Assembly (NCBI RefSeq): GCF_013307205.1 | Contig: NZ_CP028940.1 | Coordinates: 1,533,702 to 1,597,701 of the forward strand | Source: Polynucleobacter arcticus | Lineage (GTDB): Bacteria > Pseudomonadota > Gammaproteobacteria > Burkholderiales > Burkholderiaceae | DNA: 64,000 bases | Direction: 5' to 3' | Translations under genes and position numbers: made by a program | In this document: one piece after another, positions 16,973 to 21,840 of the stretch | Numbering within the stretch: position 1 is the first letter of the stretch | How the letters are laid out: each line of letters starts with the position of its first letter | Notes under the pieces: model-generated | What the model was told of the DNA's origin: nothing | The model's database searches: none | What the model saw: the letters and a program-made list of their open reading frames with translations, nothing else

Positions 16973-17134
16973 ATATGCACCGTAAGCGGCGAGAAAGTCC
17001 AATAGTCGGTTTAATTTATCAGCCTGAGTATTTCAGATCAGGTCCGGCAAACAACCCCCTCGGTTTTCTAGTTCGCATATCAACCAGTTTCGCAATAGGC
17101 CGTCAACGCACCCCGTTTGACGGTTTTTTCTTTT
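16973..17134 (+). ncRNA. Candidate structured leader or small RNA before phoH
   Basis: About 160 nt of non-coding sequence lies between a candidate promoter and a near-perfect intrinsic terminator, directly ahead of phoH. No reasonable open frame fills it. A segment CCGGCAAAC at 17044-17052 can pair, with one mismatch, with GTTTGACGG at 17115-17123, the descending arm of the terminator, so an alternative antiterminator fold is possible. It could be a free small RNA, a transcription attenuator of phoH, or both. I do not recognise it as 6S RNA or a known riboswitch. Confidence 0.45.
17100..17134 (+). terminator. Intrinsic terminator/attenuator just before phoH
   Basis: Stem CCGTCAA (17100-17106) pairs perfectly with TTGACGG (17117-17123) over a 10-nt loop and is followed by TTTTTTCTTTT. 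The U-tract runs directly into the phoH Shine-Dalgarno AGGAGA (17135-17140). This placement suggests that some transcripts end here and phoH expression depends on read-through. Confidence 0.75.
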
Positions 17135-17146
17135 AGGAGAGTCTGC

Positions 17147-18820
17147 ATGCCATTGCCCCCAATCCCAACTCAAATTGCTGGCCAAGTCAAAATTAGCGGT
17201 AAGGACACTCCCAATTTAAAGAAGCGTCCTGCTCCAGCCAAGTCTGTTGCGATGGAAAGTGATGCGCCTCATTGGACCGACGATGCAGAAGAAGATCTGT
17301 TCGATGCTGAGCTTGCGCTTGAGAAAATTAAAGGAGACCGTAGACCAGCTACGCCACGTAATGAACGTAGTAATACCAAGCTAGTAAATGTCCCAGAAAA
17401 ACCCAAACGCATGGTTCGTACTGGACCTCCAAGTCTATTCGTCCTGGACACCAACGTGTTAATGCATGATCCGAGCTCTTTGTTCCGTTTCTCGGAGCAT
17501 GATCTGTTTTTACCAATGACTACGCTGGAAGAATTGGATAACCACAAGAAGGGTATGACTGAGGTGGCTCGCAATGCTCGTACAGTGAGTCGCACCTTAG
17601 ATCAACTGGTAGCTGGCACTAGCGGCACCCTAGACGATGGCATCCCACTTAATAAATTAGGCAATCAAGACGTATCTGGTCGACTCTTTTTCCAAACCAA
17701 GCTCACTACTCTGGCCTTGCCAGAGGGTTTGCCTGAAGGTAAAGGTGACAACGTGATTTTGGCTGTTGTCAGTGAACTGCAAAAGACTCGCAAAGGACAA
17801 GAAGTAGTGTTGGTATCCAAAGATATCAATATGCGCATTAAGGCTCGTGCACTAGGATTACCTGCCGAAGACTATTTCAATGATCAAGTATTAGAAGATC
17901 GAGATTTGATGTACTCAGGCGTCATGACTTTGCCGACAGATTTTTGGCCAAAACATGGCAAAGCCATGGAAAGCTGGGCCGATGGCAAATCTGGCACGAT
18001 GTTTTATCGTGTTACGGGCCCTTCGGTACCCAGCATGCTGGTAAATCAGTTTGTTTATCAGGAAAATCCGGATGGTTCAACACCGTTCTATGCTCAGGTG
18101 AAAGAGATCAACGGCAAGACTGCGCTTCTCCAAACTTTGAGAGATTTTTCTCATCAAAAAAATAATGTGTGGAGCGTGACTGCGCGTAATCGTGAGCAGA
18201 ACTTTGCGCTAAATCTGCTCATGAATCCCGAAGTAGATTTCATTACCTTGCTCGGTCAAGCCGGCACCGGAAAAACTTTGCTGGCTTTGGCGGCTGGCTT
18301 AGAGCAAGTACTCGATAGCAAGAGATATAACGAGATTATCATCACTCGCGCTACCGTACCTGTTGGCGAAGATATCGGCTTCTTACCGGGCACCGAAGAA
18401 GAAAAGATGCAGCCATGGATGGGCGCCTTTGATGACAATCTGGAAGTACTCCATCGCAATGAAGATAATGCTGGTGAGTGGGGTCGTGCTGCCACCCAGG
18501 AATTGATTCGCTCGCGCATTAAAGTCAAGAGTATGAACTTTATGCGCGGTAGAACATTCGTAAGTAAGTTTGTCATCATTGATGAAGCACAAAACTTGAC
18601 ACCCAAACAGATGAAGACTCTGGTGACTCGTGCTGGCCCAGGAACGAAGATTATTTGTTTGGGTAACATTGCCCAGATCGACACGCCTTACTTAACCGAA
18701 GGCTCTTCAGGTCTTACTTATGTAGTAGATCGCTTCAAAGGTTGGCGTCATGGCGGACATGTGACCCTTGCCCGCGGTGAGCGTTCACGTCTTGCGGATC
18801 ATGCTGCTGACGCTCTCTAA
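17147..18820 (+). CDS. phoH: PIN-domain/PhoH-like ATPase
   Basis: 557 residues from the ATG at 17147, which has AGGAGA 6 bp upstream; a TTG at 17117 in frame lies inside the terminator and is unlikely. A Lys/Pro-rich head (1-90) is followed by a PIN nuclease domain beginning FVLDTNVLMHDPS with acidic Asp101, then by a PhoH ATPase domain with Walker A GQAGTGKT (370-377) and Walker B FVIIDEAQN (near 471). This fusion (YlaK/PhoH2 type) is thought to act on RNA as a helicase-nuclease; the exact role is open. Its terminator lies inside the start of the next gene. Confidence 0.88.
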   Translation: MPLPPIPTQIAGQVKISGKDTPNLKKRPAPAKSVAMESDAPHWTDDAEEDLFDAELALEKIKGDRRPATPRNERSNTKLVNVPEKPKRMVRTGPPSLFVLDTNVLMHDPSSLFRFSEHDLFLPMTTLEELDNHKKGMTEVARNARTVSRTLDQLVAGTSGTLDDGIPLNKLGNQDVSGRLFFQTKLTTLALPEGLPEGKGDNVILAVVSELQKTRKGQEVVLVSKDINMRIKARALGLPAEDYFNDQVLEDRDLMYSGVMTLPTDFWPKHGKAMESWADGKSGTMFYRVTGPSVPSMLVNQFVYQENPDGSTPFYAQVKEINGKTALLQTLRDFSHQKNNVWSVTARNREQNFALNLLMNPEVDFITLLGQAGTGKTLLALAAGLEQVLDSKRYNEIIITRATVPVGEDIGFLPGTEEEKMQPWMGAFDDNLEVLHRNEDNAGEWGRAATQELIRSRIKVKSMNFMRGRTFVSKFVIIDEAQNLTPKQMKTLVTRAGPGTKIICLGNIAQIDTPYLTEGSSGLTYVVDRFKGWRHGGHVTLARGERSRLADHAADAL

Positions 18821-19331
18821 GAAAGCCCTCTCATGCCGCACTCTGATGGGGTGCGGCATTTTTATTTGCATCCTCAGCATGCTCTCAGGATGCGCTAACT
18901 TTGGCTCAAAAAATCATGTAGCTAAGGTTGCCCAATTCAAACAAGACACGAGCGTTGGCACTGAGGATATCTCGATTGCAGCGCTAGGTTTGGTCGGAGT
19001 ACCCTATCGCTACGGCGGGAACAATCCTAACGGCGGATTTGATTGCAGTGGATTAATTGCCTACGTCTTTAATAAGTCTGCCAATATTAAACTTCCACGC
19101 ACCATTCAAGAGATGAGCAACCGAGGTCAAGGTGTCGATAACGGCTCACCTGCCCCTGGAGACCTAGTCTTTTTCAATACTACCGGGGCAAAGTTTTCCC
19201 ATGCGGGGATCTACGTGGGACAAGGCAGATTTGTACATGCCCCTAGTGCTGGCGGGACTGTCCGACTGGATTACATTACTGCGCCCTATTGGGCAGCGAG
19301 GTTTACTGAGGCTAGGAGATTAAGTCCCTAG
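18801..19331 (+). CDS. NlpC/P60 family lipoprotein (murein endopeptidase)
   Basis: 176 residues from the ATG at 18801, which overlaps the phoH end by 20 bp. This start gives a signal peptide with Lys7, Lys8 and Arg13, a hydrophobic core and lipobox LSGC with Cys31. An ATG at 18846 would leave a signal peptide without basic residues. The NlpC/P60 domain follows, with catalytic Cys82 (FDCSGL), His134 (FSHAGIY) and His146 (RFVHAPS), as in Spr/MepS peptidoglycan endopeptidases. The phoH terminator (18833-18867) lies within codons 11-23, so read-through or an internal promoter is needed. Family sure; start uncertain. Confidence 0.82.
   Translation: MLLTLSKKALSCRTLMGCGIFICILSMLSGCANFGSKNHVAKVAQFKQDTSVGTEDISIAALGLVGVPYRYGGNNPNGGFDCSGLIAYVFNKSANIKLPRTIQEMSNRGQGVDNGSPAPGDLVFFNTTGAKFSHAGIYVGQGRFVHAPSAGGTVRLDYITAPYWAARFTEARRLSP
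18833..18867 (+). terminator. Intrinsic terminator of phoH, inside the lipoprotein gene start
   Basis: A 9-bp perfect stem, ATGCCGCAC (18833-18841) with GTGCGGCAT (18851-18859), loop of 9, followed by TTTTATTT. It begins 12 bp after the phoH stop and overlaps the coding sequence of the NlpC/P60 signal peptide; an in-frame ATG (18846) is in the loop. Confidence 0.8.
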
Positions 19332-19344
19332 CAGTAATTAGAGA

Positions 19345-21840
19345 TTAAAACGGCTCGTATCCACCAGAGGAGTATCCAACCGATCCCATCGCCAAGTTAT
19401 CAAACTTGGTATATGGGCCTTGCCAGCTTAAGCGCACAGTACCGATCGGTCCATTACGCTGCTTGCCAATAATGATCTCTGCCATCCCTTTATCTTGGGT
19501 TGTATCTGGGTGATAGACCTCATCACGATAGATAAACATAATCAAGTCGGCATCTTGCTCGATCGCGCCTGACTCACGCAAGTCTGACATGATTGGGCGC
19601 TTATTAGGTCTTTGCTCAAGACCACGATTCAACTGGGACAGAGCCACTACGGGGCACTGCAATTCTTTTGCGAGAGACTTAAGCGATCGTGAAATCTCAG
19701 AGATTTCCGTTGCACGATTCTCAGAACCGGAACCACTCATCAATTGCAAATAATCAATTACAACAAGGCCTAGTGTGCCCCCAAAGTTACGAGCGATACG
19801 ACGCGCACGCGCACGCAACTCTAAACTAGAGAGAGCACCAGTCTCATCAATCAAAATCTGGGTATTGCTTAAACGGGCAATCGCATCTGTGACACGCGGC
19901 CACTCATCATCCTGCAGCTTACCGGTACGCATCCGACTTTGATCAACGCGCCCCACTGAGCCCAACAAACGAGATGCTAATTGTTCACCAGACATCTCCA
20001 TCGAGAACACAACCACCGGCAATCCTTCGGCTAGTGCTACGTTCTCTGCAATATTTAAGGCAAATGCTGTGTTGTGCGTCACTACGTAATCATTTGTTAT
20101 GTAGGTTCTGTCTGGATGGCTAACTGAGATACATTGAGCCTGTGCAACTCTAGATGGCTCAATACTCTTAAATGAAAGTCTGCGTTGGCGATCCCAACTT
20201 GCTCTGAGTCTTGCTTTCTTTTCAGGCAAAGTAAACGCCTGAAAGCCAGGACCAAAACTCATATTCAGAACATAAGCTAAGCGACCCTGCTTCTTTTCAC
20301 CCCGATAGGTGTAGCTCGACTGTTTGTGTGCGATTGAACAAAACCCACCCAATGATCTAGCTAGGGATGCAACATCTTCTGATAATTGCTTGCTTGCTGT
20401 GCAAAAGCGAATGGAGCCCCATTTCTCAATCCAGCCATCGGTATCCATCAGACCCTGAAACAGTGCAAGACGAGAGGTCTTATTTGCCTCAAGATAGGTT
20501 GTAGGAATGTATTTATCAAAACTTCTGCAACCTAAAACACCCAAGTCTTGTAATGCAGACCTAAAGTTATTTATTGGAACTGACTGGCGCTGGCCATTGG
20601 CCGCAATTCTGGCCTTAGAAACCAACCTCCAATCGAATGCGTTGGCATGAACTAACTCCATCTCATAGCCAGCAAGTGCATTGATGCGCTCTACAAGCTC
20701 TAGAGATTTGGTAGAAAACATCACGCTGCTATGAGACAAAGCTAATGTGCCATCGCCCAACAGTGCACCCAACACCCAAGGGTTAATCGGCAATATATTT
20801 GAATGACCGAAATCTCCAGAAACAGGATCAATCCACAAGCGATTTTTGTAGCGGGCACAGGAGAGCATCTCGATTAAACGCACTGTGCTGATGACTTTAG
20901 GTGCATCCCAATCGCGATACATCACGCGCCACAAGTGCTCATCACAGCACTCCGCTTCACGACCATCAGAGAAAATCACTTTGTATATCTGCTTGGTGCC
21001 TTGCGGGTAAATGCCAGTAACCATGGAATGTTGACCATCCACAGAGGCTAGTCGATCACCAAAGCGAAGATCGCCCATTAACTTCCAGCCATCAACCGTT
21101 TTGACCTTTGCATCTAATGGCTGCGCCTTGCCCATGGAAGGTCTTCCGGCCACAATCACCAAATCGCCTTTTTGCAGACCGCTGGTTTGCTTATCTAAAT
21201 CAATAAAACCAGTCGCAATACCCGTGATGTCACTTCCGCCTTGGCGGTTATAGAGCTCATCAATACGTGCCACAACGGTTTTGAGTAATGGCTCAATCTC
21301 TAGGTAATCGGCTTTGCGGCTACCCTCTTCACCAATTTGCAAGATACGTGACTCAGCTTCATCCAATAACGTTCTTACTGAACGGCCTTCGGGCACAAAT
21401 GCTGAGTTCACAATGTTGTCAGATACTTCAATTAAGCGGCGCAGAATACTGCGATCACGAACAATATCGGCATAGCCTTTGATATTCGCTGCACTTGGCG
21501 TGCTTTGCGCTAAAGAATTGAGGTAATCAATACCTACTAAATCACCACCCTGCTCGGACTTAACAGCCTCGTGAACAGTAATGACGTCAGCAGGATGATT
21601 GTCGCCAACTAAACGCTGAATGACCTTATAGACCAGAGCATGTTCAGGACGATAGAAATCTTTGTCAGTTAAGGTGCCGCCTAGGCGGTCCCAGGCTGTG
21701 TTGTCGATCAATAGACCGCCGAGCAGAGACTGCTCGGCTTCTACAGAATGCGGCGGTACTTTTAAGGCCTGCAAGGCTGCATCCCCAGAACCCATCATGC
21801 CAGGATTTGACATCAGGGAGCGTGAGCGGGATTCAGCCAT
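19345..21840 (-). CDS. dnaB: Replicative DNA helicase DnaB with in-frame intein
   Basis: 831 residues in one frame: DnaB N-extein 1-238, an intein 239-590, and C-extein 591-831. The spliced protein would be 479 residues, normal for DnaB. The N-terminal collar domain starts at KVPPHSVEAEQSLLGGLL. The Walker A motif GRPSMGK is cut after Lys238 and resumes as TAFALN, so unspliced precursor cannot form the ATP site. The C-extein has Walker B VVIDYLQLM, SQLNRGLE and LRESGAIEQDAD. It unwinds DNA at the fork. It lies 39 bp after rplI, at the end of the rpsF-priB-rpsR-rplI cluster, the order usual in this group. Confidence 0.96.
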   Translation of the reverse strand: MAESRSRSLMSNPGMMGSGDAALQALKVPPHSVEAEQSLLGGLLIDNTAWDRLGGTLTDKDFYRPEHALVYKVIQRLVGDNHPADVITVHEAVKSEQGGDLVGIDYLNSLAQSTPSAANIKGYADIVRDRSILRRLIEVSDNIVNSAFVPEGRSVRTLLDEAESRILQIGEEGSRKADYLEIEPLLKTVVARIDELYNRQGGSDITGIATGFIDLDKQTSGLQKGDLVIVAGRPSMGKAQPLDAKVKTVDGWKLMGDLRFGDRLASVDGQHSMVTGIYPQGTKQIYKVIFSDGREAECCDEHLWRVMYRDWDAPKVISTVRLIEMLSCARYKNRLWIDPVSGDFGHSNILPINPWVLGALLGDGTLALSHSSVMFSTKSLELVERINALAGYEMELVHANAFDWRLVSKARIAANGQRQSVPINNFRSALQDLGVLGCRSFDKYIPTTYLEANKTSRLALFQGLMDTDGWIEKWGSIRFCTASKQLSEDVASLARSLGGFCSIAHKQSSYTYRGEKKQGRLAYVLNMSFGPGFQAFTLPEKKARLRASWDRQRRLSFKSIEPSRVAQAQCISVSHPDRTYITNDYVVTHNTAFALNIAENVALAEGLPVVVFSMEMSGEQLASRLLGSVGRVDQSRMRTGKLQDDEWPRVTDAIARLSNTQILIDETGALSSLELRARARRIARNFGGTLGLVVIDYLQLMSGSGSENRATEISEISRSLKSLAKELQCPVVALSQLNRGLEQRPNKRPIMSDLRESGAIEQDADLIMFIYRDEVYHPDTTQDKGMAEIIIGKQRNGPIGTVRLSWQGPYTKFDNLAMGSVGYSSGGYEPF
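20071..21126 (-). mobile_element. Class 3-like intein with LAGLIDADG homing endonuclease in dnaB
   Basis: 352 residues (239-590 of the precursor). It begins with Ala239 instead of Cys/Ser, has block B ending DEHLW (His302, Trp304), block F with Cys570 (QAQCISV), and block G VVTHN with Thr588, His589 and terminal Asn590; the first C-extein residue is Thr. Trp in block B, Cys in block F and Thr in block G are the signature of class 3 inteins, which use the block F Cys in place of residue 1. Endonuclease motifs LLGDGTL (360-366) and LMDTDGW (464-470) are the two LAGLIDADG (DOD) blocks. The insertion point, the DnaB P-loop, is a known homing site. By eye it is somewhat more AT-rich than the exteins. 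Confidence 0.92.

Follow-up and report, generated by a model that had tools for sequence, protein, structure and literature searches.

The dnaB gene of Polynucleobacter arcticus, a freshwater bacterium whose named relatives are also Polynucleobacter, is interrupted within its P-loop. The locus raises the question of what kind of element lies there and why some close relatives are free of it. The window, the whole stretch of DNA that was analysed, spans 64,000 nucleotides. The element is an intein that is itself ordinary for its class, and the interest lies in the population pattern. Among readable dnaB loci of the genus, 59 bear the intein and 78 are free of it, and close species occur in both states, making the genus a natural experiment. 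Newly added here are the patchiness within the genus, the purifying selection on the nuclease, the crossing between classes, and the codon pattern at the insertion site.

The intein in the dnaB P-loop

The dnaB precursor, recomputed from the DNA, is an 831-aa open reading frame. The intein comprises precursor residues 239-590, an in-frame insertion of 352 aa between GRPSMGK and TAFALN, i.e., between the Lys and the Thr of the Walker A motif (P-loop). Residues W304, C570, T588, H589, N590, and T591 (+1) were recovered from the translation, and the computed spliced DnaB has 479 aa. The insertion, its first residue (Ala), and the product length agree with the first-pass annotation. Pfam places the DnaB N and C domains on either side of the intein and LAGLIDADG_3 inside it (E 3e-8 for the intein alone). 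The features are the following.

19345..21840, minus strand: dnaB precursor, 831 aa (recomputed ORF and Pfam domains)
21127-21840, minus strand: N-extein, part of the dnaB precursor
19345-20070, minus strand: C-extein, part of the dnaB precursor
20071..21126, minus strand: class 3 intein, 352 aa, at Walker A Lys/Thr (ORF, conservation, structure model and PDB matches)
21124..21126, minus strand: Ala1, non-nucleophile first residue (kept in 108 of 109 distinct inteins)
20929..20952, minus strand: block B ECCDEHLW with Cys60, Cys61, His64, and Trp66 of the WCT triplet (conservation)
20743..20772, minus strand: LAGLIDADG motif 1, LGALLGDGTL (Asp125 in 105 of 109)
20431..20460, minus strand: LAGLIDADG motif 2, FQGLMDTDGW (Asp230 in 103 of 109; LAGLIDADG_3 match)
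20227..20799, minus strand: homing endonuclease domain, approximate, intein residues 110-300 (Pfam, structure matches, dN/dS 0.058)
20131..20133, minus strand: block F Cys332, predicted first nucleophile (kept in 108 of 109)
20071..20079, minus strand: block G Thr350-His351-Asn352 (translation and conservation)
21127..21132, minus strand: extein codons -2 and -1, left-hand side of the putative homing target (intein-state association; no effect in the hold-out)
20062..20070, minus strand: extein codons +1 to +3, right-hand side of the putative homing target (intein-state association; +1 confirmed in the hold-out)
Within 20062..20070, minus strand: Thr+1, predicted second nucleophile (first C-extein codon)

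The genes ahead of dnaB are rpsF, priB, rpsR, and rplI, the usual chromosomal surroundings of dnaB. A DnaB_C search of the one-contig 2.09-Mb genome found no second dnaB. The one other match was weak and fell in a 476-aa frame elsewhere, which we take to be RadA. The first-pass annotation had suggested comparing relatives for intein-free dnaB, and 78 of the 137 readable loci of the genus are uninterrupted at the P-loop; the insertion is therefore real and not due to chance. Elsewhere in the window, a PhoH2-like protein (17117-18820; E 1.5e-70, below its curated cut-off) adjoins an NlpC/P60-like protein (18768-19331).

Class 3 inteins, as outlined in PMC5222942 and PMC6195587, lack a nucleophile at residue 1, carry Trp B:12, Cys F:4, and Thr G:5, and are followed by Ser or Thr. 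Here residue 1 is Ala, W66, C332, and T350 are the predicted WCT triplet, and Thr occupies +1. Insertion between the Walker A Lys and Thr/Ser is that of DnaB-b (P-loop) inteins. Two intact motifs and the fold place it among LAGLIDADG homing inteins, and the presence of the nuclease domain separates it from the mycobacterial DnaB-b mini-inteins. Conservation was assessed in 152 extracted P-loop inteins, representing 109 distinct sequences. A1, H64, W66, C332, T350, H351, and N352 are all kept in 108 of the 109, which upholds the earlier class 3 assignment by Trp304, Cys570, and Thr588. SMGK precedes and Thr follows all 152, as expected from the P-loop site that the first-pass annotation had named. 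Its two-motif LAGLIDADG nuclease is likewise supported, by the Pfam match and by motif acids kept in 103-106 of 109. The one exception among the 109 (L100, from G681) is an unrelated 494-aa Cys1 class 1-like intein at the same P-loop position in another member of the taxonomic class.

A structure model built from a 48-sequence alignment has a pLDDT of 89.9. Its best PDB match is PI-SceI (E 4.9e-16), and other LAGLIDADG inteins also rank at the top. The class 3 DnaB inteins of Mycobacterium smegmatis and M. chimaera appear lower in the list, matched over the splicing domain; for M. smegmatis DnaBi1 (6bs8), two of three chains align at rmsd 1.5-1.6 A with 30% identity. W66 aligns to the Trp of EHLW in the gp41-1 intein 6riz (title: C1A, F65W, D107C). 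The NCBIfam model intein_Nterm (TIGR01445) has no match anywhere in the genome, and a search by that model therefore misses this intein.

Within block B, Cys60 is kept in 107 and Cys61 in 108 of the 109 distinct inteins. This adjacent pair, giving CxxH where TxxH or DxxH might stand, is near-invariant in bacterial relatives. ECC is present in 40 of 52 viral loci and the full ECCDEHLW in 38 of 52.

By analogy with the family, Cys332 would attack the Lys-Ala bond, the chain would then be transferred to Thr+1, and Asn352 would cyclise, leaving the joined DnaB. That splicing gates the replicative helicase, as the first-pass annotation held, is only inferred.

Presence, gain, and loss of the intein

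The intein was matched in 60 of 151 genomes in the genus search, full-length in 56. Across 186 Polynucleobacter genomes, the left intein junction is found in at least 70 and the empty-site pattern in at least 67, both lower bounds because the patterns are strict. Four rows were dropped (the fragments G066 and G093, G147 at a contig edge, and G067, which is cut), and G281 and G407 were added to the loci from the family search. The tree was built from rplI and the extein of 130 genomes (74 free, 56 bearing); seven genomes without a usable rplI are absent from it.

On this tree, closely related Polynucleobacter species without the intein exist, and the intein state changes 31 or more times, at least 19 of them forced by supported branches. 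Presence is clustered (31 changes vs. a mean of 42.3 for shuffled labels). In 50 close pairs, which are not independent, the nuclease region has a dN/dS of 0.058, compared with 0.040 and 0.050 in the two splicing parts and 0.015 in the exteins. The nuclease part is under purifying selection. The sister species G091 and G004 carry unlike inteins (extein pS 0.171, intein 0.444), while G098 and G008 carry inteins that are too similar (extein pS 0.189, intein 0.064), as do G094 and G135. Intein and extein synonymous distances correlate with a Spearman coefficient of 0.64. Judged from sequences, the state changes, the nuclease dN/dS, and these pairs fit repeated gain of the intein. Tree comparison by Robinson-Foulds and site-likelihood was not clean, and the distance contrasts were relied on instead: intein data reject the extein tree (z 12.8), extein halves likewise reject each other's trees (z 5.3-7.1), and, per site, the rejection of the intein tree by extein data is weaker than that seen in the extein-half controls.

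Outside the genus, the family search matched 31 of 299 genomes, 16 of those in Polynucleobacter. The class search matched 16 of 369, with only two strong matches besides the genome itself. Among the best 80 of 104 relatives, the named carriers at about 50% identity or more include Burkholderia, Paraburkholderia, Trinickia, Limnobacter, Rhizobacter, and the gammaproteobacterium Dyella flagellata. The inteins of Dyella flagellata and Trinickia mobilis are 81% identical and their exteins 57%; the intein has therefore moved between bacterial classes. Viral relatives are distant, with a best full-length match of 39% and one partial match of 41%. The nearest named phage intein is at 37.7% (best 40 of 677 records). 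GK stands directly before the insertion in 45 of the 52 viral loci read.

Several other loci were observed in these searches. On one viral contig (L053), a DnaB-like frame contains a related intein, inserted at AGRPGMGK/T. The dnaB frames of two deep-branching genomes, L264 and L265 (G100 and G043), have 967 and 971 aa; each contains a divergent P-loop intein, of 335 and 343 aa respectively, that is 41-42% identical across its first 268-269 residues, and each is interrupted a second time near C-extein residue ~167. Three 630-aa dnaB frames, L261, L262, and L263 (G025, G003, and G140), are uninterrupted at the P-loop but have about 140-150 extra aa near C-extein residue ~167, which may represent a small intein at a different DnaB site. 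A 974-aa Polynucleobacter frame away from dnaB (L295, G009 C6) contains an intein-like stretch, 29% identical.

An old, vertically inherited intein with a decaying nuclease and many losses would suit the clustering on the tree and the correlated distances. This is unlikely, given the purifying selection and the retained motif acids of the nuclease, the sister species with unlike inteins, and the transfer across classes. Another reading is that the intein is retained because it regulates DnaB, holding back its activation under redox or metal stress, a role proposed for M. smegmatis DnaBi1. Oxidation blocks DnaBi1 splicing according to PMC6195587, and Cys60 and Cys61 lie conserved beside the active-site His. 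Their occurrence in viral ECCDEHLW can be counted for regulation too, but because the same Cys are conserved in phage proteins, a role in structure or catalysis is favoured over host regulation, and the intein is absent from more than half of the readable dnaB loci. Regulation is thus quite improbable. Splicing by a class 1 or class 2 route can call only on Ala1, a feature of class 2 too; residue 1 is not a nucleophile, +1 is Thr and not Cys, and the class 3 Trp and Cys are present, so that this route is very hard to credit. The first-pass annotation had held that homing may be active. The state changes, the constrained nuclease, and the class crossing argue for such activity, as far as sequences can.

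Codons around the insertion site

The codon analysis used a main-clade set of 93 genomes (53 bearing, 40 free), leaving out 37 deep-branching genomes of the 130, chosen by eye. Each of 519 variable codons in dnaB and rplI was tested for association with intein state. Codons -2, -1, +1, +2, and +3 give the five strongest associations (z 6.9-11.5), followed by -31 and +22 (z 6.5); more than ten codons away, the mean lies close to zero. The common intein-bearing flank is GGTAAGACTGCATTT. Among main-clade alleles, the 15-mer GGTAAR/ACTGCATTT occurs in 19 of the 53 that bear the intein and in none of the 40 free ones; among deep-branching genomes it occurs in one free (G116) and one bearing (G032). 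Intein-free G116 carries GGTAAAACTGCATTT. Many free alleles in the haplotype list depart from the common bearing haplotype at several codons, and natural intein-free alleles there include GGAAAAACGGCGTTC, GGGAAAACCGCGATG, GGAAAAACGGCGATG, and GGTAAAACGGCGTTC. Codons uncommon in dnaB are used by free alleles at -2 (GGA/GGG, 17/40) and +2 (GCG, 21/40), and +1 is ACG in 16/40 vs. 4.8 expected. Met is found at +3 in 11/40 free and 0/53 bearing alleles. Rare codons alone are weak evidence, because codon use is also unusual at -7, alike in both states.

Close pairs differ at -2..+3 by 0.758 for bearing/free (100 pairs), 0.216 for bearing/bearing (77), and 0.492 for free/free (24), vs. 0.24 elsewhere. 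None of 5000 label permutations, which ignore kinship, reached the observed contrast. In phylogenetically independent pairs, having at least three of the five target codons, a trait defined post hoc after the data were seen, goes with the intein in 9.5 and against it in 0 (median p 0.0039). Single codons gave 13.4 to 2.6 for +1 ACT (median p 0.013), 11.5 to 1.2 for -1 AAG (p 0.006), 7.2 to 0.8 for +3 TTT (p 0.039), 0.8 to 6.0 for -2 GGA/GGG (p 0.125), and 6.3 to 2.2 for +2 GCA (p 0.29). Codon +4 GCA runs in the opposite direction (p 0.039), and the control codons +6, -7, and -12 show no association in these pairs. The codon difference was not seen in a further genus of the family, where 6 bearing alleles were compared with 30 free ones; the latter were chosen by an amino-acid-fixing pattern, 30 loci being taken from a longer match list.

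A hold-out of 24 genomes outside the main analysis (12 bearing, 12 free) was used. Codon +1 is ACT in 10/12 bearing vs. 2/12 free (p 0.0033) and ACG in 0/12 vs. 6/12 (p 0.014). Codon +2 GCA shows a trend (8/12 vs. 3/12, p 0.10), while -2 GGT (10/11 vs. 9/12) and -1 AAG (4/11 vs. 5/12) do not differ in this set. Codon +1 is trusted most, because the hold-out bore out +1 only.

Terminal-branch changes per codon at -2..+3 are 0.245 for free and 0.098 for bearing tips, vs. 0.108 and 0.106 elsewhere. Free tips exceed bearing tips on each of four trees. On every one of them, none of the 307 windows shows so large a difference, and label permutations reach it in 0, 0, 0, and 8 of 20000 cases. Within-state trees were made because uniform intein-bearing flanks could bias parsimony. 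Free alleles alone take 15.6 steps per codon at -2..+3 vs. 9.8 elsewhere (7/310 windows as high), bearing alleles alone 11.6 vs. 11.7, and deep-branching free alleles 9.0 vs. 9.7. Codon -1 is an exception, with 7 steps among free alleles. By these tip and within-state counts, which parsimony and recombination limit, the excess change lies mostly in free alleles of the clade where the intein is common. Such an excess is predicted by escape and not by co-conversion alone.

The favoured reading, at a probability of roughly 0.8, is that this class 3 intein splices in cis and homes actively by means of a functional LAGLIDADG nuclease, the mostly synonymous target change being escape. The nuclease would cleave intein-free dnaB where the intein inserts, with repair then copying the intein in. 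The intein would be gained and lost repeatedly among Polynucleobacter species, and free alleles with extra, mostly synonymous changes straddling the insertion point would no longer be recognised. The signature, the site, the patchiness, the constraint on the nuclease, and the codon pattern are observed; we infer splicing, cleavage, and escape. For the narrower claim, that intein-free Polynucleobacter escaped a circulating intein by mostly synonymous rewriting of the Walker A cutting-site codons, the odds are about even. Against it, single synonymous changes are reported to be well tolerated by homing endonucleases (PMC3024317), and the nuclease of a Haloferax intein recognised the target of a relative despite differences that were mostly synonymous (PMC10643990).

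Co-conversion alone, a possible though somewhat doubtful account, holds that homing copies a few donor flank codons, so that bearing alleles share donor-like flanks and free alleles stay native. Co-conversion accompanies homing (PMC3943268). Its signs lie just outside the target: with extein distance allowed for, identity of bearing pairs tracks intein distance at -8..-4 and +4..+8 (p 0.033 and 0.003), but at -2..+3 intein distance does not predict it (p 0.12). Variation in bearing alleles falls below that of matched codons at -2 (10 steps vs. 14.0) and +1 (10 vs. 18.2), which also fits flanks travelling with the intein, and is very high at +4/+5 (25 and 21 steps). A search for a long co-conversion tract found none. 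Against co-conversion alone, free alleles by themselves are fast at four of the five codons and use gene-uncommon codons (-2 GGA/GGG, +1 ACG). Escape and co-conversion may act together. Escape, if true, is a host-parasite arms race in the codons of a protein motif hardly free to change.

Comparison with known systems

Target-site resistance to a homing endonuclease is an assumption of homing-cycle and gene-drive theory, and the genus makes it directly testable in bacteria with natural alleles. A literature search, covering mostly non-subscription papers, found none naming both Polynucleobacter and intein and, by titles and abstract starts, none dealing with escape from an intein through synonymous target change.

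The novelty that the first-pass annotation implied for a chromosomal class 3 DnaB intein does not hold. One in the P-loop (site b) is published for M. smegmatis, M. leprae has a class 3 homologue of DnaBi1 (both in PMC6195587), and M. chimaera DnaB1 is also class 3 (PMC7664689). Nor is the nuclease new, since LAGLIDADG motifs are reported for 82.5% of 1701 class 3 inteins (PMC7891396). M. smegmatis DnaBi1 shares the gene, the P-loop site, a non-nucleophile at residue 1, the WCT triplet, and a similar HINT fold. It differs in having Ser+1 and DxxH in block B, where the Polynucleobacter intein has Thr+1 and CxxH; at that block B position, class 1 has Thr, M. smegmatis Asp, and the Polynucleobacter intein Cys (PMC6195587 for the first two). 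Mycobacterial DnaB-b inteins are described without an endonuclease in PMC5050341, whereas this intein has a complete LAGLIDADG domain.

Class 3-type phage inteins in GK/T of Walker A (helicases, terminases, RecA-like) share a related start and the block B motif. They are the nearest viral models, yet distant: 39% at best over full length, compared with about 48-94% for Burkholderiales dnaB inteins (best 80 of 104). PI-SceI and the archaeal VMA inteins share the HINT plus LAGLIDADG architecture but lie in another host gene. Both splice by the class 1 route.

Spread of inteins between species and resistant alleles with a splicing-blocking residue are already described in the intein literature. 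The haloarchaeal mcm and polB homing inteins (PMC10643990, PMC4071816, and PMC3024317) are likewise patchy, home in replication genes, and have had resistant alleles discussed. Haloarchaeal resistance is tied there to a splicing-blocking +1 proline, whereas the Polynucleobacter changes are mostly synonymous.
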